Shown here: in pieces, positions 2,221-60,780 of the stretch
How positions within the stretch are numbered: position 1 is the first letter of the stretch
Layout: each line of letters opens with the position of its first letter
NCBI GenBank assembly: GCA_028554795.2
Contig: CM068838.1
Coordinates: forward strand, 128,065,428 to 128,129,427
From: Sinohyriopsis cumingii
Lineage: Eukaryota; Mollusca; Bivalvia; Unionida; Unionidae
Reading direction: 5' to 3'
DNA: 64,000 bases
The notes under the pieces: model-generated
Seen by the model: only the letters and a program-made list of their open reading frames with translations
What the model was told of the DNA's origin: nothing
Database searches by the model: none
Translations under genes and position numbers: made by a program

Positions 2221-2523
2221 AGTAGTGAAGGGGGATACCCTAGCGACAATGGGAATTAGCATTACAGACCCCCTTGGGACAATCTGGCGACAATGGAAAA
2301 TTAACATGGAGAAAAATCGTGGGACAATCTGGCGACAAGGGAAATTAACATGGAGAAAATTTGTGGGACTGTTGAGCGACAAGGGAAATTAACATGGAGA
2401 AAAATCGTGGGACTGTTTAGCGACAAGGGAAATTAACATGGGATTTTTTTTAAAAATTTTTTTTTAAAAAAAGGGGTAGGCAATTGAAAAGTCATTCTCT
2501 TTTCGAGAAATATGGCTGGCCCT
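2221..2523 (+). repeat. Left terminal inverted repeat of the Polinton
   Basis: 303 bp, matching the reverse complement of 22492-22794 except for about three positions in the T8A5T9A7 tract at about 2444-2472 (the right copy is T7A7CT7A7). The inner edge falls inside what in the right copy is a histone-type stem-loop, so the left copy keeps only the 3' half of the stem (GGGCC followed by AGCC, read on the minus strand). Confidence 0.97.
2281..2443 (+). repeat. About 44-bp tandem repeat inside the left TIR
   Basis: About 3.7 units starting at 2281, 2326, 2370 and 2414. Each contains the core GCGACAAGGGAAATTAACATGG (first unit GCGACAATGGAAAATTAACATGG), followed except in the last partial unit by GAGAAAA and GGGAC. 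The array is mirrored at 22572-22734. Regular iterons at both termini suggest binding sites for a terminal or origin-binding factor; this is inference. Confidence 0.85.
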
Positions 2524-2574
2524 TCTTCTGCTTCTAATTTCTTCTTTTTCTCCACCAAGTTCTTATTTTCTCTC

Positions 2575-2913
2575 CTACACTCTTTCTCTTCTTTTTTTCT
2601 CCTGCTCTTCTTTCTTCTTCTCTTCCTCTTCTTCTTTCTTCCTCTTCTCATTTTCTTCTTCTTTTTCAATTTTTTCGTTCCATTTGCGTATTCTTATTCT
2701 TTCCTCTTCATCCTCCTTCTCCTCCTTTATCTCTTTCATGACACCACTTATCTTGTCCTTTACCTTTCTTAAATTATTAATTTCCATCTTTACACGATGG
2801 GGACTATAGGAATAGTGGTCTTCAACGAGTCTTATTAACATCTGCTCCATCATTCCTAAATTGTCTAAAACGTCTTGCAATGTTTGCATTTTGTCCATTT
2901 GGTTAGAAGCCAT
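2575..2913 (-). CDS. Polinton accessory protein 1 (coiled-coil, highly charged, 112 aa)
   Basis: Unrecognised protein. The N-terminal 60 residues (MDKMQTLQDVLDNLGMMEQ, MLIRLVEDHYSY) look helical. The rest is almost pure E/K/R and should form a charged helix. The ATG lies 41 bp downstream of a TATAAG box with the shared 27-bp element beyond it. It is the first of three similarly organised left-end cassettes. No complete histone stem-loop follows: only the 3' half of the stem survives, at 2514-2523, because the TIR begins there. The purine/pyrimidine skew makes long frames cheap, but the promoter architecture supports expression. Confidence 0.6.
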   Translation of the reverse strand: MASNQMDKMQTLQDVLDNLGMMEQMLIRLVEDHYSYSPHRVKMEINNLRKVKDKISGVMKEIKEEKEDEEERIRIRKWNEKIEKEEENEKRKKEEEEEKKKEEQEKKRRERV

Positions 2914-2953: not shown

Positions 2954-3063
2954 CTTATAGTGAAAGCGCGGACGTGAAGGAAAACATCCCCCTAAAAACA
3001 TAAAATTGATCTTACCTACATCATGACCGAACAACGCGCGGACGTGAAGGAAAACATCCCCCT
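2954..3063 (-). promoter_or_regulatory. Promoter of accessory gene 1: TATA plus two copies of the 27-bp element
   Basis: Read on the minus strand: TATAAG (2954-2959), a 6-bp spacer, then the 27-bp element GCGCGGACGTGAAGGAAAAC plus ATCCCCC (plus-strand text) at 2966-2993, repeated perfectly at 3036-3063. The same element with the same TATA spacing precedes accessory genes 2 and 3. Confidence 0.75.
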
Positions 3064-3293
3064 ACTTTCTCATTTCATATAATAAAACCCTAACTATACT
3101 CTTCACATATGCTAAGAAACAATAAAGAAACCCATAATCTACCATTCACACCAACTTACGTGAACAGTTACTAACACAAACACACAAACACATACACTCC
3201 CACTATTAATAAAGAGTTAATGTTTATATTCACCCTACTCTACCTACACTCATTGGCAAATGGATCGTTATTTCTTTTCTAGAGTATTGGGCT

Positions 3294-3309
3294 AGCCCTG
3301 AAAAGGGCT
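3294..3309 (-). terminator. Histone-type 3' stem-loop of accessory gene 2
   Basis: On the minus strand it reads AGCCCTTTTCAGGGCT: 6-bp stem and 4-nt TTTC loop as in replication-dependent histone mRNAs. It is preceded by AAAAAAC, followed by AGCCCA and then GAAAAGAAAT, which resembles the U7-binding histone downstream element. It lies 27 bp past the stop of the 3336-3767 gene. Confidence 0.8.
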
Positions 3310-3820: not shown

Positions 3821-3860
3821 TTTATAGTGAAAGCGCGGACGTGAAGGAAAACATCCCCCT
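3821..3860 (-). promoter_or_regulatory. Promoter of accessory gene 2: TATA plus 27-bp element
   Basis: TATAAA (3821-3826, minus strand), 6-bp spacer, then the 27-bp element at 3833-3860, identical to that of gene 1. A decayed second copy (GCGCGGACC) lies at about 3907-3915. Confidence 0.75.
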
Positions 3861-4220
3861 AAAAACAGAAAATTGATCTTACCTAGATCATGACCAAAGA
3901 AACAACGCGCGGACCTAAAAGAAACACTCACTCACTTTTTATGCTACCCATCACTATTTTAAAATTTTTTCATAAATCACTTCAATAGACTATCCACATA
4001 CGCAAAGCAATCCAATCTAACCCCAAATATACACCTCAAACACCAAAAAAGACATCATTTTAATCTACTATCCATACCAACTTACTTAAGCACTTACAAA
4101 CACAACCACACAAACACATACCCTCACATTTTTTTAAGAAAAAGTTAGTGTTTATTTTCACACTACTCTACCTACACACATTGGCAAATGGATGGTTATT
4201 TCTTTTCTAGAGGATTGGGT

Positions 4221-4236
4221 AGCCCTGAAAAGGGCT
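4221..4236 (-). terminator. Histone-type 3' stem-loop of accessory gene 3
   Basis: Minus-strand AGCCCTTTTCAGGGCT followed directly by ACCCA, the canonical histone 3' flank. GAAAAGAAAT follows about 14 nt further on. It lies 33 bp past the stop of the 4270-4644 gene. Confidence 0.85.
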
Positions 4237-4674: not shown

Positions 4675-4713
4675 CTTAAAGTCAAGGCGCGGACGTGAAG
4701 GAAAACATCCCCC
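4675..4713 (-). promoter_or_regulatory. Promoter of accessory gene 3: TATA-like box plus 27-bp element
   Basis: TTTAAG (4675-4680, minus strand), 6-bp spacer, then the 27-bp element at 4687-4713. The spacing to TATA is the same as in the other two cassettes. Confidence 0.7.
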
Positions 4714-13773: not shown

Positions 13774-13990
13774 GGGGGTATGGTAAGTACTGATCGTAAA
13801 GAGTCCACAAAGAATCGGCTGGTAAACGAAATCCCAGAAAACAAGTCACTAAGACACACACCACTTGTCGTCCCAAATTGAATGGATACAGTTCTTGTAA
13901 TAATCGGTGGTAATGATCCACGGTTTGAATATGGTCATTGAGTTCCTTCCACGGAATCTGTTGGATTACATGTGATAAAAACCTCGGCAT
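13652..13990 (-). CDS. Hypothetical protein, first part of the split gene
   Basis: Starts MPRFLSHVIQQIPWKEL, with its own TATAAAA at 14001-14007 on the minus strand. The useful part runs to about YDQYLPYPHG, after which the neighbouring frame takes over coding character. No family recognised. The start lies within the end of the preceding gene (13935-14453). Confidence 0.4.
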   Translation of the reverse strand: MPRFLSHVIQQIPWKELNDHIQTVDHYHRLLQELYPFNLGRQVVCVLVTCFLGFRLPADSLWTLYDQYLPYPHGLKRSRKTPFAQSLAVSSGYFSTSTGKKDSSTFSYPRRV

Positions 13991-14453
13991 AACAACCTGT
14001 TTTTATATTCTCTTTTTTTCGGATGCAATACACGTACTTTCTAGCCAGATATCCTCGTTCTCCAGTAGGAAATTTAAATGCTCCAAACTGTAACCTAAAC
14101 TTCAAACTTCGTTTAGGAGTTTCCTGTTTCTCTAAGTAGATTCCACGTAAAATATGTTTGTAATCCTTTAACTTGTCTTCCTCAATGCGTTGCACTAGGT
14201 GAATCTCGAAGTAACCAAAATTATGAACATGTCGATCATTGGCGACCTCAAAATTTTGAACAATGTCTGACCACTGAAACAATTTCTGACGAATCAGTTC
14301 TCTTATACCATTCAGGTACCAGTGGTTAAAGATCTGGTGACGTAACGGATGCAATTGTTCTTTACGCTTCACTTGTATTTTGACCAGCTCACGGTAAATG
14401 CGTTCTCTCAACTCCACAGGCAAAGCACGAATGTTCTCTAGGAAAGTATCCAT
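13935..14453 (-). CDS. LPxELxxxIY-box protein 1 (tandem paralogue)
   Basis: 172 aa starting MDTFLENIRALPVELRERIY. The first 70 residues are nearly identical to the next gene (14466-14921), including QLHPLRH and HWYLN. The LPxELxxxIYxEL segment resembles the start of F-box-like or related adaptor helices, which would suit a protein recruiting a host ubiquitin ligase; that is only a resemblance. The C-terminal half diverges and is K/E-rich. Preceded by GACCTATTC before the ATG, as in its paralogue. Confidence 0.55.
   Translation of the reverse strand: MDTFLENIRALPVELRERIYRELVKIQVKRKEQLHPLRHQIFNHWYLNGIRELIRQKLFQWSDIVQNFEVANDRHVHNFGYFEIHLVQRIEEDKLKDYKHILRGIYLEKQETPKRSLKFRLQFGAFKFPTGERGYLARKYVYCIRKKENIKTGCYAEVFITCNPTDSVEGTQ
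14001..14007 (-). promoter_or_regulatory. TATA box for the split gene
   Basis: Minus-strand TATAAAA within the end of the preceding gene, only about 11-17 bp upstream of ATG 13990. Translation might therefore start at a later ATG, such as 13773. Confidence 0.35.
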
Positions 14454-14465
14454 GAATAGGTCATA

Positions 14466-14921
14466 CTAAATCCTCTTTGGTTTGACACAAGAAATGTACT
14501 GTTTGCACAAACATGGTTTTAATTCATTGTCGAATCTAAATCGTTTCACCACTAATCTACACATTACAATTCGTTCAGAAGTTTCCTCTTTCACCAAGTT
14601 GACATTGCGTGAAAGATGTTGGTAATTCGTTAACTCTTCCTCTGGAATTCGATGCAGTACGTTTACAATGTAGTAGATAGAATCGTCAATACCAAACCAT
14701 TCCTTTTTATAACCAGGAGGTCGTTGATCAATGTCTGTCCAATGGAACAGTTTCAACTCAATCAGTCCTTGTATAGCATTCAGGTACCAGTGGTTCAAAC
14801 ACCGGTGACGTAACGGATGCAATTGTTCTTTACGTGTCACTTGTATTTTGACCAGCTCTCGGTAAATCCTTTCTCTCAACTCCACAGGCAAAGCACGAAT
14901 GTTCTCTTGTAAAGTATTCAT
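14466..14921 (-). CDS. LPxELxxxIY-box protein 2 (tandem paralogue)
   Basis: 151 aa, MNTLQENIRALPVELRERIY. Paralogue of 13935-14453. Its ATG overlaps the stop of the gene before it (ATGA), indicating a tightly packed unit. The C-terminal region differs from its paralogue and keeps several Cys. Function unknown. Confidence 0.55.
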   Translation of the reverse strand: MNTLQENIRALPVELRERIYRELVKIQVTRKEQLHPLRHRCLNHWYLNAIQGLIELKLFHWTDIDQRPPGYKKEWFGIDDSIYYIVNVLHRIPEEELTNYQHLSRNVNLVKEETSERIVMCRLVVKRFRFDNELKPCLCKQYISCVKPKRI

Positions 14922-15326: not shown

Positions 15327-15965
15327 TCAATGTCTCGGTCCCACTAAGGGTAAGTAATAACAATTCGGTGACCATCGAGCATGTTCTACGTAGGCCGAAT
15401 CTTGCGGTTCCCAGTGGTGAAGTGACACACCGCAACTGAAGCACTTGACTTTATCTCCTTCGCCCAAGTAGAAAAATCCGGCTCTGGCTAATTCTTCGGG
15501 GGTCGGTCCTCCCAGATACTTAGGCCATTTTCCTTTGAACGATTGAAGACGATTTTCAAAGTCGCAGTATTCCGACAAACGCACAGGAAACGAATATTCG
15601 TCTTTCACAGGTTCGTTTCGATGAAGGTTGGGTGACATGAACAGGAGTTTGCTCAGGGCTGGATGACATCCGTAAGGGGGTAGACGTGAAGGTGAACATT
15701 CCCCTTTAAAACGAAACCCAGTAAAATGTCCAAGAGGACGAGCGGCATCACTTTCGCATCCCACAGGTTTGGCACGCACAGCATCACTTTCCATGATAGG
15801 GGTAGGGACACTAAAGTTCCCATGATGCTTTACGCCATCACTCAGGTCACAAGGTACAGCATCGTACCCATCACAAGGCTCACAATCGCATTCCACTTCA
15901 GAAGCCTCACACTTGAATTGAGCCTATCTAAACAACTTGTTCTGTGTTTCTCTGAAAGTATTCAT
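15327..15965 (-). CDS. BIR-domain (IAP-like) protein 2, interrupted by an in-frame TAG
   Basis: ATG 15965 (MNTFRETQNKLFR) is followed by TAG at 15924-15926, then the frame stays open for 199 codons. The first part has acidic Cys-containing sequence (VECDCEPCDGYDAVPCD). The C-terminal BIR domain has the full zinc-binding spacing C-x2-C-x16-H-x6-C (KCFSCG, EHARWSPNC) preceded by ARAGFFYLGEGD. No RING domain. BIR proteins of DNA viruses can block apoptosis; whether this one does is inference. It follows BIR protein 1 by 22 bp. Confidence 0.8.
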
Positions 15966-15987: not shown

Positions 15988-16482
15988 TCACAATGAACTA
16001 TCGATCTTGACCATAGCCCCTTTTTTTACTAGTCGCAATGCAGTCTCCAGCTTGTACATCTTTCCTTTTTTACGTTTTTTATGTCCTGTTCTGGAAGGTA
16101 CCGTCTCTAAGGTACCGTCAACATTGTACCGTAGTGTGATGGGTGGAAAGGCCATAGAAAGGTAAGGGCAGTGCGGAGACCATCGAGTATGTTCCAGAAT
16201 AGCTGAATCTTTATAGATACATAGATCCATTCGTAACTTCAGTCCGCAAGCGAAACACTGTACCTCGTATCCCAATCCTGACTCAGGTCCCAAGTAGACA
16301 AATCCTGTTCTAGCTAAAACATGCGAAGAAGGTAATCCTTCCCTATCCGAAGGCCATTTCTGAAACGTGTCCAATCGACGGGCACAATCACGATAGTCAG
16401 GTAAGAAGACTGGAAAATGGTAGGGTTTGAACTTGGAGTTCTCATCGGGTTTCTCACTCGATTCTTGCTGTGGCGAAGTCAT
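15988..16482 (-). CDS. BIR-domain (IAP-like) protein 1
   Basis: 164 aa, intact, starting MTSPQQESSEKPDENS. A single BIR domain: FLPDYRDCARRLDTF, ARTGFVYLGPES, then CFACG ... EHTRWSPHC with x18 between the second Cys and His, slightly longer than in its neighbour. Basic tail (GHKKRKKGK). No RING. It lies in the same reading frame as the upstream polymerase, separated by the polymerase TAA and eight codons, so readthrough would make a PolB-BIR fusion. Likely modulates host cell death; inference from the domain. Confidence 0.85.
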   Translation of the reverse strand: MTSPQQESSEKPDENSKFKPYHFPVFLPDYRDCARRLDTFQKWPSDREGLPSSHVLARTGFVYLGPESGLGYEVQCFACGLKLRMDLCIYKDSAILEHTRWSPHCPYLSMAFPPITLRYNVDGTLETVPSRTGHKKRKKGKMYKLETALRLVKKGAMVKIDSSL

Positions 16483-20684: not shown

Positions 20685-21134
20685 ATGGAAGAGACTACCC
20701 AGATGGAACGTTTCGTCAGAGCTTTGCGAGGGGTCATTAGAAAATTCTCTTCAGACCAGCCTACGGACTACTCTCCTTCCTTTCGAGATAAAAGTCAAGA
20801 TACTTGCTATATCTGTCAGAAGAAAGGGCATTGGTCTTCAGAGTGTCCAGACCGTCAAAAAAGAACAAAAACAGGGGCTAAAAAAGACAAAAGTCAAGAT
20901 ACCTGTTATTATTGTAAAGAAAAAGGACATTGGTCTCCAGATTGCCCAAAAAAGAAACAAGAGGAGTCAGAAGAAAAGAAGGATTTTTCAGAAGAAGAGA
21001 GGGATTCTTCAGAGGAAGAAGAGGAAGAAAGAAGACAATTCTATTTACAAGAGGCAAAGAAACAGGAGAAGAAAAGAAGAAGGGAAGAAAATGAGGAAAA
21101 GACGGTGAAGAAATTTAAAAAACAGAGAGACTAA
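20685..21134 (+). CDS. Double CCHC zinc-knuckle protein
   Basis: I chose ATG 20685 (MEETTQMERF), which lies past the TATA box; the frame extends upstream only without a suitable ATG. Two perfect retroviral-type zinc knuckles, CYICQKKGHWSSEC and CYYCKEKGHWSPDC, sit about residues 47-87, separated by a basic linker. The C-terminal part is a long E/K/R-rich coiled coil. Probably binds single-stranded nucleic acid; inference. It ends in an ordinary AATAAA at 21220-21225. Confidence 0.75.
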   Translation: MEETTQMERFVRALRGVIRKFSSDQPTDYSPSFRDKSQDTCYICQKKGHWSSECPDRQKRTKTGAKKDKSQDTCYYCKEKGHWSPDCPKKKQEESEEKKDFSEEERDSSEEEEEERRQFYLQEAKKQEKKRRREENEEKTVKKFKKQRD

Positions 21135-21225: not shown

Positions 21226-21381
21226 TTAATGATATAAGGTAAGTGTCTTTGAGTTTTGATTTTAAAATAAGAACGAAACTTACGCACTCATACACAGACA
21301 CGTACTATAAGGGTAAAATGGGTGGGTTTTTTTTGAGTTATTGGCAAATTGAAATTGTATTTCTTTTCGAGAAATGTGGGT

Positions 21382-21397
21382 GGCCCTGAAAAGGGCC
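21382..21397 (-). terminator. Histone-type 3' stem-loop of accessory gene 4
   Basis: Minus-strand GGCCCTTTTCAGGGCC preceded by an A-run and followed by ACCCACA, matching the metazoan histone stem-loop and flank. GAAAAGAAAT at 21360-21369 fits the downstream element. It lies 30 bp past the stop of the 21428-22004 gene. Confidence 0.87.
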
Positions 21398-21427
21398 TTT
21401 TTTTTTTTTTTTGGTGTAGGGGTGAGT

Positions 21428-22004
21428 TTAAGCAATCAACTTTAACTGCCTTATGCCTTTGCCACGGCCAAGGCCTACTTCTGGACTGCGTAATGTTGAT
21501 GATGATTGGGTTGAAATCACTAAGGGTGGTACGGTAGGCTTAGTAACAGGGTTAACGTGTTTAGCTCGGGAAGGTCGTATTCTCTTCGGTCGTGATAAAG
21601 AAGTCTGATACATTTGTTTCAGACTTCTTAACTCCGCTAAAATGTCCAACAGTACTGTGACCGTTTGATTTTCACCCTCTTGTTTCTTTGCTGCTACTTC
21701 TTCTTGCTGTTGTTGCTGTTGTTTTTTTTCTTACCTCTTCTTCTTGCTGCTGTTGCTGTAGGAGAAAAGCTTGTTCCGCTTCCTTTTGTCGTTGTATAAA
21801 TTTCTCCAATTCTTCTTTCTGTCTCTGTCTAAAATTCTCCACTTGCGGTAATGAAGAAGGTAACGAAGGTTCCGGAACAAATTCTTGCGAAGAGAGAAAA
21901 TCCACAAAATCCCAATTCACCTCTTCTGAAAGTAAGTCCGGGTTCCCTTGGGCGGTCTCCCCTGTTGGTGCACCCCAATGGATCGTTTTCTGAGTTTCCG
22001 TCAT
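21428..22004 (-). CDS. Polinton accessory protein 4 (coiled-coil/polyQ; frame shifts at an A8 run)
   Basis: ATG 22004 (MTETQKTIHWGAPTGE) opens a frame with a helical Q/E-rich stretch (RQRQKEELEKFIQRQKEAEQ) and a short polyQ. At GTAAGAAAAAAAAC (about 21731-21744) coding character passes to another frame that continues to 21428 (TVTVLLDILAELRSLKQMYQ, then a basic tail). Either a one-base indel in the A8 run or programmed slippage. The intervening segment could mimic a GT-AG intron but would be only about 20 nt. Unknown function; shares the helical style of accessory genes 1-3. Confidence 0.55.
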
Positions 22005-22051
22005 GTTGAATCACTGTCGCATAGATTGACTGCACACAAGCGCTAGCGAAT

Positions 22052-22179
22052 CTATATAGACCACGTGACGTCACAGACTGCTCTCTTCGGATTGGATGCG
22101 AGCTGACTGAATTTTGTAACGCGTGTTCGGATTGGTGAATGAACTCAATCCGTTTCAATCCTTCCTCTACCTATAAATA
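22052..22179. promoter_or_regulatory. Bidirectional promoter between accessory genes 4 and 5
   Basis: Minus-strand TATATAGA at 22052-22059 with CACGTG (22062-22067) overlapping the palindromic CRE TGACGTCA (22066-22073). Two CCAAT boxes appear as TTCGGATTGG near 22086 and 22127. Plus-strand TATAAATAA at 22172-22180. The divergent layout with TATA and CCAAT recalls metazoan H2A/H2B gene pairs. Confidence 0.7.
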
Positions 22180-22223
22180 AGCGCAGTTCACTGCATTGAT
22201 TCACCTGTTCTCGTCGCTTCAAG

Positions 22224-22433
22224 ATGTGGACCACAGTTGAGTCATCCACCCTTGTGTCTTCCATGATGTTTAGGACGGACATGCTCATGTATGTCCGATC
22301 CAAGTGGACCGTTGTCCACAGGACAAACACCAGCCTGTGGATACGTAGGATCTACGTTGAAAGACAAGGATGCCTGAAAAGAGTGCTGATTTACGGACCA
22401 ACAGTAAGACGCAGCCTAAGGACAAGAAAATGA
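22224..22433 (+). CDS. Polinton accessory protein 5 (69 aa, basic)
   Basis: A short basic protein (MWTTVESSTLVSSMM, VRSKWTVVHRT, tail GPTVRRSLRTRK) of no recognised family. The case for a real gene is architectural: TATAAATAA 45 bp upstream of the ATG, and a complete histone-type stem-loop 48 bp past the stop. The predicted transcript is about 300 nt, the size class of a small histone mRNA. It is not a histone by sequence. Confidence 0.55.
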   Translation: MWTTVESSTLVSSMMFRTDMLMYVRSKWTVVHRTNTSLWIRRIYVERQGCLKRVLIYGPTVRRSLRTRK

Positions 22434-22481
22434 CCAATGCGGTGCCCTTTATGTTAATGAATACATTAACATAAACCCAAA

Positions 22482-22497
22482 GGCCCTTTTCAGGGCC
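22482..22497 (+). terminator. Histone-type 3' stem-loop of accessory gene 5
   Basis: Plus-strand GGCCCTTTTCAGGGCC, preceded by ACCCAAA and followed by AGCCA, with GAAAAGAGAATGA at 22511-22523 as a purine-rich downstream element. The 3' half and the downstream element belong to the TIR. Confidence 0.88.
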
Positions 22498-22794
22498 AGC
22501 CATATTTCTCGAAAAGAGAATGACTTTTCAATTGCCTACCCCTTTTTTTAAAAAAAGTTTTTTTAAAAAAATCCCATGTTAATTTCCCTTGTCGCTAAAC
22601 AGTCCCACGATTTTTCTCCATGTTAATTTCCCTTGTCGCTCAACAGTCCCACAAATTTTCTCCATGTTAATTTCCCTTGTCGCCAGATTGTCCCACGATT
22701 TTTCTCCATGTTAATTTTCCATTGTCGCCAGATTGTCCCAAGGGGGTCTGTAATGCTAATTCCCATTGTCGCTAGGGTATCCCCCTTCACTACT
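22492..22794 (-). repeat. Right terminal inverted repeat of the Polinton
   Basis: Reverse complement of 2221-2523. The inner edge (22492) lies in the 3' half of the complete stem-loop at 22482-22497, so the purine-rich downstream element GAAAAGAGAA at 22511-22520 is part of the TIR. Confidence 0.97.
22572..22734 (-). repeat. About 44-bp tandem repeat inside the right TIR
   Basis: Mirror image of the array at 2281-2443, base for base. Confidence 0.85.
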
Positions 22795-22800
22795 GTTGTT
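22795..22800. other. Polinton target-site duplication, right copy (GTTGTT)
   Basis: Direct repeat of 2215-2220, immediately outside the right terminal inverted repeat. Confidence 0.93.
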
Positions 22801-60225: not shown

Positions 60226-60780
60226 CTATATTATGATGCAAAATGTCTGATGAATATTTCGCAGAGTATGTGTATCGACCCGATTAAACACAACTAAAAT
60301 ATTACAGCTATTTCTAATCACTTTAAGTATTTGTGTATATCGTTGAGTAACATAAATCACCTCTGTGTTTTTATGCCTGCGTATAGAAAATATTCTTGCT
60401 GGATTTGATTGTTTATCTAACATTACCTCATCATATATCACAAAATTGTTAATAAATCCATCGAGATCACCTACAGATCGGGCTTCATCAATATCGGTGA
60501 CAAAATTAATAATATTATGACCATCTTCGTCCAACAATTTTGCATTATCATTAAAATCTCTAAGTACGTTGTAGCATCTCTGATCATCAACTGACGGAGC
60601 TACTAAATACAACCTATCCCATTTGAGCCATCCCATTATCCGACTAAGTAATAATTGTGTCTTACCAGATCCAGATGGACCTATGATAATTGCCCTGATA
60701 GAATTCGGTAGCGCTGGATGATGCCTGACTCGCTCTTGTTTTTGTGTCGCTGATAAATCAATGAGATTCAGGTTATACAA
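60226..60780 (-). CDS. A32-type packaging ATPase of a third Polinton (C-terminally truncated)
   Basis: 184 aa open frame starting MYNLNLIDLSATQKQERV with the family leader HHPALPNSIRAIIIG. Walker A is IGPSGSGKTQLLLSRI and Walker B is NFVIYDEVMLDKQSN. The RRHKNTEVIYVTQRY segment is also present. It stops after LRNIHQTF, so the last part of the family length is missing or altered. Quite unlike the ATPase at 12397-13140, so a different Polinton lineage. Probably a relic that happens still to be open. Confidence 0.8.
   Translation of the reverse strand: MYNLNLIDLSATQKQERVRHHPALPNSIRAIIIGPSGSGKTQLLLSRIMGWLKWDRLYLVAPSVDDQRCYNVLRDFNDNAKLLDEDGHNIINFVTDIDEARSVGDLDGFINNFVIYDEVMLDKQSNPARIFSIRRHKNTEVIYVTQRYTQILKVIRNSCNILVVFNRVDTHTLRNIHQTFCIII

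Follow-up and report, generated by a model that had tools for sequence, protein, structure and literature searches.

To our knowledge, replication-dependent histone genes are almost the only genes considered to use histone stem-loop processing. The locus analysed here raises the question of whether a mobile element that encodes no histones has come to use it. Within a stretch of 64,000 nt (hereafter the window), an initial annotation had described stem-loops of the histone type at the 3' ends of two genes, C and D, and had taken them to mean that a Polinton had captured histone-type 3' processing. The stem-loop reading of C and D was confirmed and was enlarged to four genes with a stem-loop and a purine-rich downstream element, and comparison of sequences supported the interpretation. 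On this basis, it is likely that the Polinton acquired regulatory modules of the host histone genes and that SLBP and the U7 snRNP process its accessory mRNAs, which would couple them to S phase.

The Polinton insertion and its genes

The boundaries of the element were given by terminal inverted repeats at 2221-2523 and 22492-22794 (303-nt arms, 99% complementary), flanked by GTTGTT at 2215-2220 and 22795-22800 as a 6-bp target duplication. Long terminal inverted repeats and a short target-site duplication are features of Polintons, as is the gene set that was found: a protein-primed-type PolB, an rve integrase, a packaging ATPase, a protease and a capsid protein. In all of these the element resembles Polinton/Maverick elements and adintoviruses. 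Pfam matches were obtained to DNA_pol_B_2 (E 3e-43), a Pox_A32-type ATPase (4.5e-8) and the integrase core (2.9e-7), and weakly to the adenovirus protease (E 0.0086), the integrase and protease matches falling below their curated cut-offs. The capsid protein had 991 relatives, and the names among the best 120 included Mercenaria, Ostrea, Crassostrea, Saccostrea and Littorina. The insertion and its five accessory genes, which presumably are early genes, are as follows.

2221-22794, no strand: Polinton insertion, 20.6 kb, within the window
2575-2913, minus strand: gene L1, open reading frame of 112 codons
3336-3767, minus strand: gene A, open reading frame of 143 codons
4270-4620, minus strand: gene B, open reading frame of 116 codons
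21428-22004, minus strand: gene C, split in the window copy into frames 21672-22004 and 21428-21613 of the open reading frame lists
22224-22433, plus strand: gene D, 69 codons in the window copy

That the encoded proteins are not histones, as the initial annotation had stated, held up. Searches of the window for H2A, H2B, H3 and H4 at 1e-4 gave no match, and no histone family was found among the 20 window proteins scanned with Pfam. The Polinton genes thus differ from replication-dependent histone genes in encoding no histone, and also in lying within a mobile element. The database search with protein D returned a single relative, 83% identical. The predicted structure of D was poor (pLDDT 47.6) and was set aside.

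Histone-type modules downstream of C and D

Beyond the stop codons of C and D, a stem-loop, a spacer and a purine-rich element were located in the orientation of each gene.

21362-21397, minus strand: 3' module of C, with the stem-loop at 21397-21382, spacer at 21381-21372 and CTCGAAAAGA at 21371-21362
22482-22517, plus strand: 3' module of D, with the stem-loop at 22482-22497, spacer at 22498-22507 and CTCGAAAAGA at 22508-22517

Both of the stem-loops that had been reported at these 3' ends were recovered, each as the same 16-nt GGCCCTTTTCAGGGCC. A scan with RF00032 (gathering score 34 bits), which the initial annotation had proposed, gave 41.2 bits for the C module (E 9.6e-9 for the window) and 33.9 bits for the D module (E 5.1e-6); C was therefore above the gathering score and D just under it. 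Because the D module lies 0.1 bit below that score, a default RF00032 scan reports C only. A poor model score, which had been named as counting against the initial annotation, was not obtained for either module. The distance from stop to stem-loop had been put at 30-50 bp and was measured as 30 nt for C (for the frame ending at 21428) and 48 nt for D. The GAAAAGA element described after both stem-loops was likewise present, as CTCGAAAAGA after a spacer of 10 nt in each case. In stem-loop, spacing, downstream element and short distance from the stop, the modules resemble the replication-dependent histone genes of Metazoa (RF00032, SLBP, U7 snRNP). A perfect 11-bp hairpin, TTATGTTAATG with the loop AATA, was also observed at 22449-22474 (plus strand), after the stop of D and ahead of its stem-loop.

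Further modules at the left end

Two genes with the signal had been noted, and both proved real, but the count rose to four accessory genes and a remnant on a fifth when the left end of the element was included.

4201-4236, minus strand: 3' module of B, with stem-loop AGCCCTTTTCAGGGCT at 4236-4221, a 10-nt spacer and CTAGAAAAGA at 4210-4201
3273-3309, minus strand: 3' module of A, with stem-loop AGCCCTTTTCAGGGCT at 3309-3294, an 11-nt spacer and CTAGAAAAGA at 3282-3273
2476-2529, minus strand: remnant 3' module of L1, reduced to the 3' arm and the downstream element and situated where the left inverted repeat has its inner edge

With RF00032, the B module scored 29.1 bits (match 4241-4196, E 3.1e-4) and the A module 22.5 bits (match 3314-3270, E 0.095), the latter well below the gathering score, so that among the four only C reached 34 bits. 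The L1 remnant, from which the 5' arm is absent, scored 40.7 bits (E 1.7e-7) with the model R1. The terminal inverted repeat has its inner edge within the D stem-loop, and the left end consequently has only the 3' arm of that stem-loop and the downstream element.

For A, B, C and D, the 16-nt stem-loop with a UUUN loop was found on the same strand as the gene, 26, 33, 30 and 48 nt after the stop, respectively, and hence always within about 50 nt. The basal pair of the stem is A-U in A and B where C and D have G-C, which keeps the fold; this A-U pair is a difference from replication-dependent histone genes. A loose stem-loop pattern allowing up to three mismatches matched the window four times, where 0.57 matches were expected; a count of four was attained in 1 of 100 shuffles. 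Of random strand-positions in the element, 5.8% fell no more than 48 nt beyond the stop of a frame with at least 60 codons. There are 49 such frames in the element; a stem-loop lay within 300 nt for five of them (A, B, D and the two C pieces) and not for the other 44. AATAAA follows the stop of some other frames, for example 108 nt on for the protease and 85 nt on for the CCHC gene. One is likewise present 113 nt beyond the stop of gene B, so polyadenylation is possible for this gene; for that reason, and because AATAAA is common in AT-rich DNA, the contrast is only suggestive. When pairs were counted in just the four modules of the window, the result was uninformative (98 of 500 shuffles as high).

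Comparison with the host histone genes

The host histone genes were found in tandem units of about 8.3 kb. Among named database entries, those closest to the host H1 came from Mytilus and oysters, in keeping with a mollusc and probably a bivalve. The H3 genes (30 of the 30 loci examined) and H4 genes (29 copies) carry the stem-loop GGCCCTTTTTAGGGCC followed after 10 nt by CTAGAAAAGA. In one unit, H2B has GGCCCTTTTCAGGGCC, 10 nt and CTAGAAAAGA; H2A has GGCCCTTTTAAGGGCC, 11 nt and the variant element CCCGAAAAGG; and H1 has GGTCCTTTTCAGGACC, 11 nt and CTAGAAAAGA. The stem-loop of C and D is identical to that of host H2B. The downstream element of A and B (CTAGAAAAGA) agrees with the host CTAGAAAAGA in 10 of 10 letters, and that of C and D (CTCGAAAAGA) in 9 of 10. 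Its distance from the stem-loop (11, 10, 10 and 10 nt for A, B, C and D) stays in the host range of 10-11 nt.

RF00032 scored host H4 at 37.7 bits and host H3 at 35.9 bits, both under Polinton module C. A covariance model built from only the four Polinton modules recovered all five host histone 3' ends, with E values from 4.7e-8 to 6.7e-6. After the downstream element, a third stretch is common to both sides, CAATTTGCCA in Polinton C and CAATTTTGCCA in host H2A. In a search for the host U7, the best candidate (29.3 bits, E 0.27) was below the 34-bit cut-off and paired only weakly with the downstream elements; it was not accepted. Passages of an earlier report on bivalve histone genes, for example those of Lucina pectinata, describe a palindrome near the stop codon, with purine-rich elements in some genes (PMC6210712). 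That case differs from the present one in that, in those passages, the genes code for host histones.

Promoters of the accessory genes

The regions before the five genes were compared with the promoters of the five host histone genes.

2966-2988, minus strand: histone-type promoter element before L1, exact match
3036-3058, minus strand: second promoter element before L1, exact match
3833-3855, minus strand: promoter element before A, 23/24 bases as in host H2B
3904-3924, minus strand: 21-nt word common to the host H4 promoter, upstream of A; 0/100 shuffles as high
4687-4709, minus strand: promoter element before B, 22/23 bases as in host H2B
22005-22223, no strand: shared promoter region of C and D, unlike host histone promoters

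The sequence common to L1, A and B, GATGTTTTCCTTCACGTCCGCGC, occurs four times in the window, always before these genes, against an expectation of 0.00. Host H2B carries it with one change over 24 bases (23/24 against L1 and A), the host H1 promoter matches the element region over a longer stretch, and host H2A matches in reverse orientation. No shuffle out of 100 scored as high for L1, A and B against H2B and H1, for A against H4, or for A and B against H2A; for L1, one did so against H2A and two against H4. The comparisons of B with H4 (14 of 100 shuffles) and of L1, A and B with H3 did not rise above the null. The core of the element, ACGTCCGC, resembles the site bound by HINFP, a candidate factor that we take to activate histone H4 genes at G1/S.

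L1, A and B therefore share a promoter element with host histone genes, most clearly H2B and H1, whereas C and D have another promoter. In 10 of 10 tests against the five host histone promoters, the C-D region did not align above its shuffles, and a histone-like promoter for these two genes was rejected. The initial annotation had called the C-D pair built like a histone gene pair. The TATA- and CCAAT-type letters are indeed present in its promoter, but the likeness is a weak one: all five of the host histone genes examined lie on a single strand, and the C-D promoter is unlike theirs.

The promoters bear on an alternative in which the genes do rely on histone-type 3' processing, though for some end other than S-phase coupling. 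An mRNA that lacks poly(A) and is bound by SLBP might be of use for translation under a shortage of poly(A)-binding protein, for quick decay or for escape from silencing. C and D, which have the 3' signal and lack a histone-like promoter, would suit such a purpose. On L1, A and B, however, the promoter element of the host histone genes is present as well, a sign that the whole expression programme is involved and not the 3' end alone, and we regard the alternative as unlikely.

Conservation among genomic copies

The host genome (2.905 Gb, 1138 contigs) was searched with the D region, which gave 41 matches: the window, 38 copies and two pieces of one more copy. The 38 copies and the window were aligned as 39 rows and the two pieces were left out. 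For C, 36 of the 39 rows were used, L014 and L023 having no homologous C end aligned and L015 being truncated. Gene D has 76 or 77 codons in 29 of the 39 rows (window included) compared with 69 in the window copy, and the C frame directly before the stem-loop often has 180-209 codons in other copies.

Absence of the stem-loop from related copies, which had been named as evidence that would count against the initial annotation, was not observed. All 16 letters of the D stem-loop are present in 39/39 rows (33 identical, 36 with all six pairs), among copies that share descent and were found with a query that included this stem-loop. The C stem-loop is identical in 30/36 rows and has six pairs in 34/36. 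Mean pairwise diversity downstream of D was 0.019 in the stem-loop, 0.277 in the next 9 nt, 0.039 in TCTCGAAAAGAGA, 0.029 in GAAAAGA and 0.253 in the following 51 nt; for codon positions one, two and three of D, the values were 0.103, 0.054 and 0.280. Downstream of C (36 rows), the stem-loop gave 0.021, ACCCA 0.011, the next 5 nt 0.234 and GAAAAGA 0.008. Conserved islands with a variable spacer are the pattern predicted by a stem-loop plus a U7 site. In 100000 draws of 16 third codon positions, none was as low as the D stem-loop. Among the 685 windows of 16 nt in 21900-22600, this stem-loop ranks 16th for conservation, and promoter stretches are among those ranked higher. Conservation of the C coding pieces is similar to that of the sequence around them (diversity 0.04-0.08). 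For protein D, mean dN was 0.079 and mean dS 0.647 (719/741 pairs); the dN/dS of 0.12 indicates that the protein is real and under constraint.

These data also bear on whether the modules are relics, that is histone flanks once picked up from the host and now functionless. Sequence identity with the host histone flanks agrees with such an origin, as do the split gene C and the broken L1 module of the window copy. Set against this are the conservation of stem-loop and downstream element while spacer and third codon positions vary, the retention of modules by four genes with differing coding parts, and the A-U for G-C exchange that preserves the stem, and we consider the relic explanation very improbable. 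A chance-lookalike DNA hairpin or terminator, for example for replication or packaging of the ends, is hardly credible either: the D stem-loop does straddle the inner edge of the terminal inverted repeat, but stem-loop, flank and downstream element are exactly as in the host, each module is on the strand of the gene just ended, and the A and B modules are set in from the left end by about 1 and 2 kb.

Modules across the host genome and beyond

RF00032 gave at least 75 matches in the host genome, all of at least 34.5 bits (34.5-45.6), a lower bound because only the best of 589,472 first-look candidates were scored. Thirty of these 75 loci, picked by their stem-loop signal, were fetched and classified, and the other 45 were left out. 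All 30 contain genes of the same Polinton and none contains a core histone; the host histone genes were not among the loci fetched.

A scan with R1 covered the 30 RF00032 loci, the 38 copies, the window and two histone loci, and returned 144 modules, comprising 138 in Polintons and six rows at the five host histone genes. The stem-loop was GGCCCTTTTCAGGGCC in 106 of the 138 Polinton modules, and a recognisable downstream element was present in 124, at exactly 10 nt in 121. A frame of at least 50 codons ended no more than 150 nt before the module in 138 of the 144 cases (median 24 nt). Nearly all Polinton modules (132/138) come after the sequence of D (57), C (53), A (13), L1 (8) or B (1). On 115 distinct module rows, 98.4% of pairs were standard and 14 cells were changed on both sides (0 of 500 shuffles as high); these cells belong to two pairs, a number that 32 of 500 shuffles equalled or exceeded. 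All of these counts are biased by relatedness and by fitting to the model.

In the 30 RF00032 loci, the promoter element (up to four mismatches) occurred 34 times, in 13 loci, and all 34 occurrences are followed on their own strand by a module, at a distance of 410-780 nt. The exact 23-place promoter pattern was found 30,300 times genome-wide (14,960 + 15,340) and not once when read backwards. The 100 element places listed fall into 43 groups, or about 13,000 when scaled up to all places; their spacing suggests that these represent Polinton left ends in the 2.9 Gb.

Beyond the host, the capsid protein and its alignment were searched against viral contigs and found no relatives. The stem-loop pattern matched one of the viral contigs, which is phage-like and has no RF00032 match, and the stem-loop with the downstream element matched none. 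Four distant Polinton contigs (capsid identity 26-44%) contained no module; being diverged and mostly partial, they say little about the spread of the signal. These four contigs sit in assemblies labelled bacterial, some of them from symbionts of marine animals, and are presumably host contamination.

Proposed processing and timing of the accessory mRNAs

According to a published account, animal histone mRNAs are made without poly(A) by a route in which SLBP binds the stem-loop, the U7 snRNP recognises the downstream element by pairing, and CPSF73 cleaves the RNA between these two sites (PMC7026596). If the Polinton modules act as their counterparts in the host do, SLBP would bind the stem-loop on each accessory transcript and the element 10-11 nt beyond it would pair with the host U7 snRNA. 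Cleavage by the U7 snRNP between the two would yield a short mRNA without poly(A). L1, A and B would be transcribed in S phase from their copy of the host H2B/H1 promoter element, and the accessory mRNAs would be lost once DNA replication stops. The accessory proteins would then be made in replicating cells, with host replication resources at hand, where the element may copy best.

We lean, with some reserve, towards a broader reading in which the histone programme was taken over at both promoter and 3' end, giving S-phase mRNAs without poly(A) from about ten thousand loci, enough to compete for SLBP and U7. With some 13,000 inferred left ends in one genome, competition with host histone mRNA for these two factors becomes a real question. 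If non-histone genes of a mobile element copy histone processing, selfish DNA can capture a whole class of cell-cycle gene expression. The Polinton would also be a natural test of which sequence features suffice for S-phase coupling, and the timing of its gene expression becomes directly testable.

The proposed histone-type regulation sets this element apart from the Polinton/Maverick elements and adintoviruses described so far, as judged from the open-access literature matches listed, none of which reported regulation of this kind for a mobile element or a virus. In the passages of one source on Polintons and adintoviruses, 'stem-loop' has 0 occurrences (PMC11071296).

Other features of the window

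Of two neighbouring minus-strand frames in the Polinton, 15327-15794 and 15988-16482, one encodes a protein with a BIR (inhibitor of apoptosis) domain (PF00653, E 2.5e-24), and the other appears similar by eye. The gene at 20685-21134 (plus strand), which adjoins gene C, encodes two CCHC zinc knuckles (zf-CCHC, E 1.2e-13). Two adjacent frames on the minus strand, 13935-14453 and 14466-14921, are paralogous; they have the same N-terminal sequence and no Pfam match. Outside the Polinton, a fragment of a Zot/Pox_A32-type ATPase was seen at 60226-60636 on the minus strand (E 3.7e-4 and 0.018), perhaps belonging to another viral-type element.
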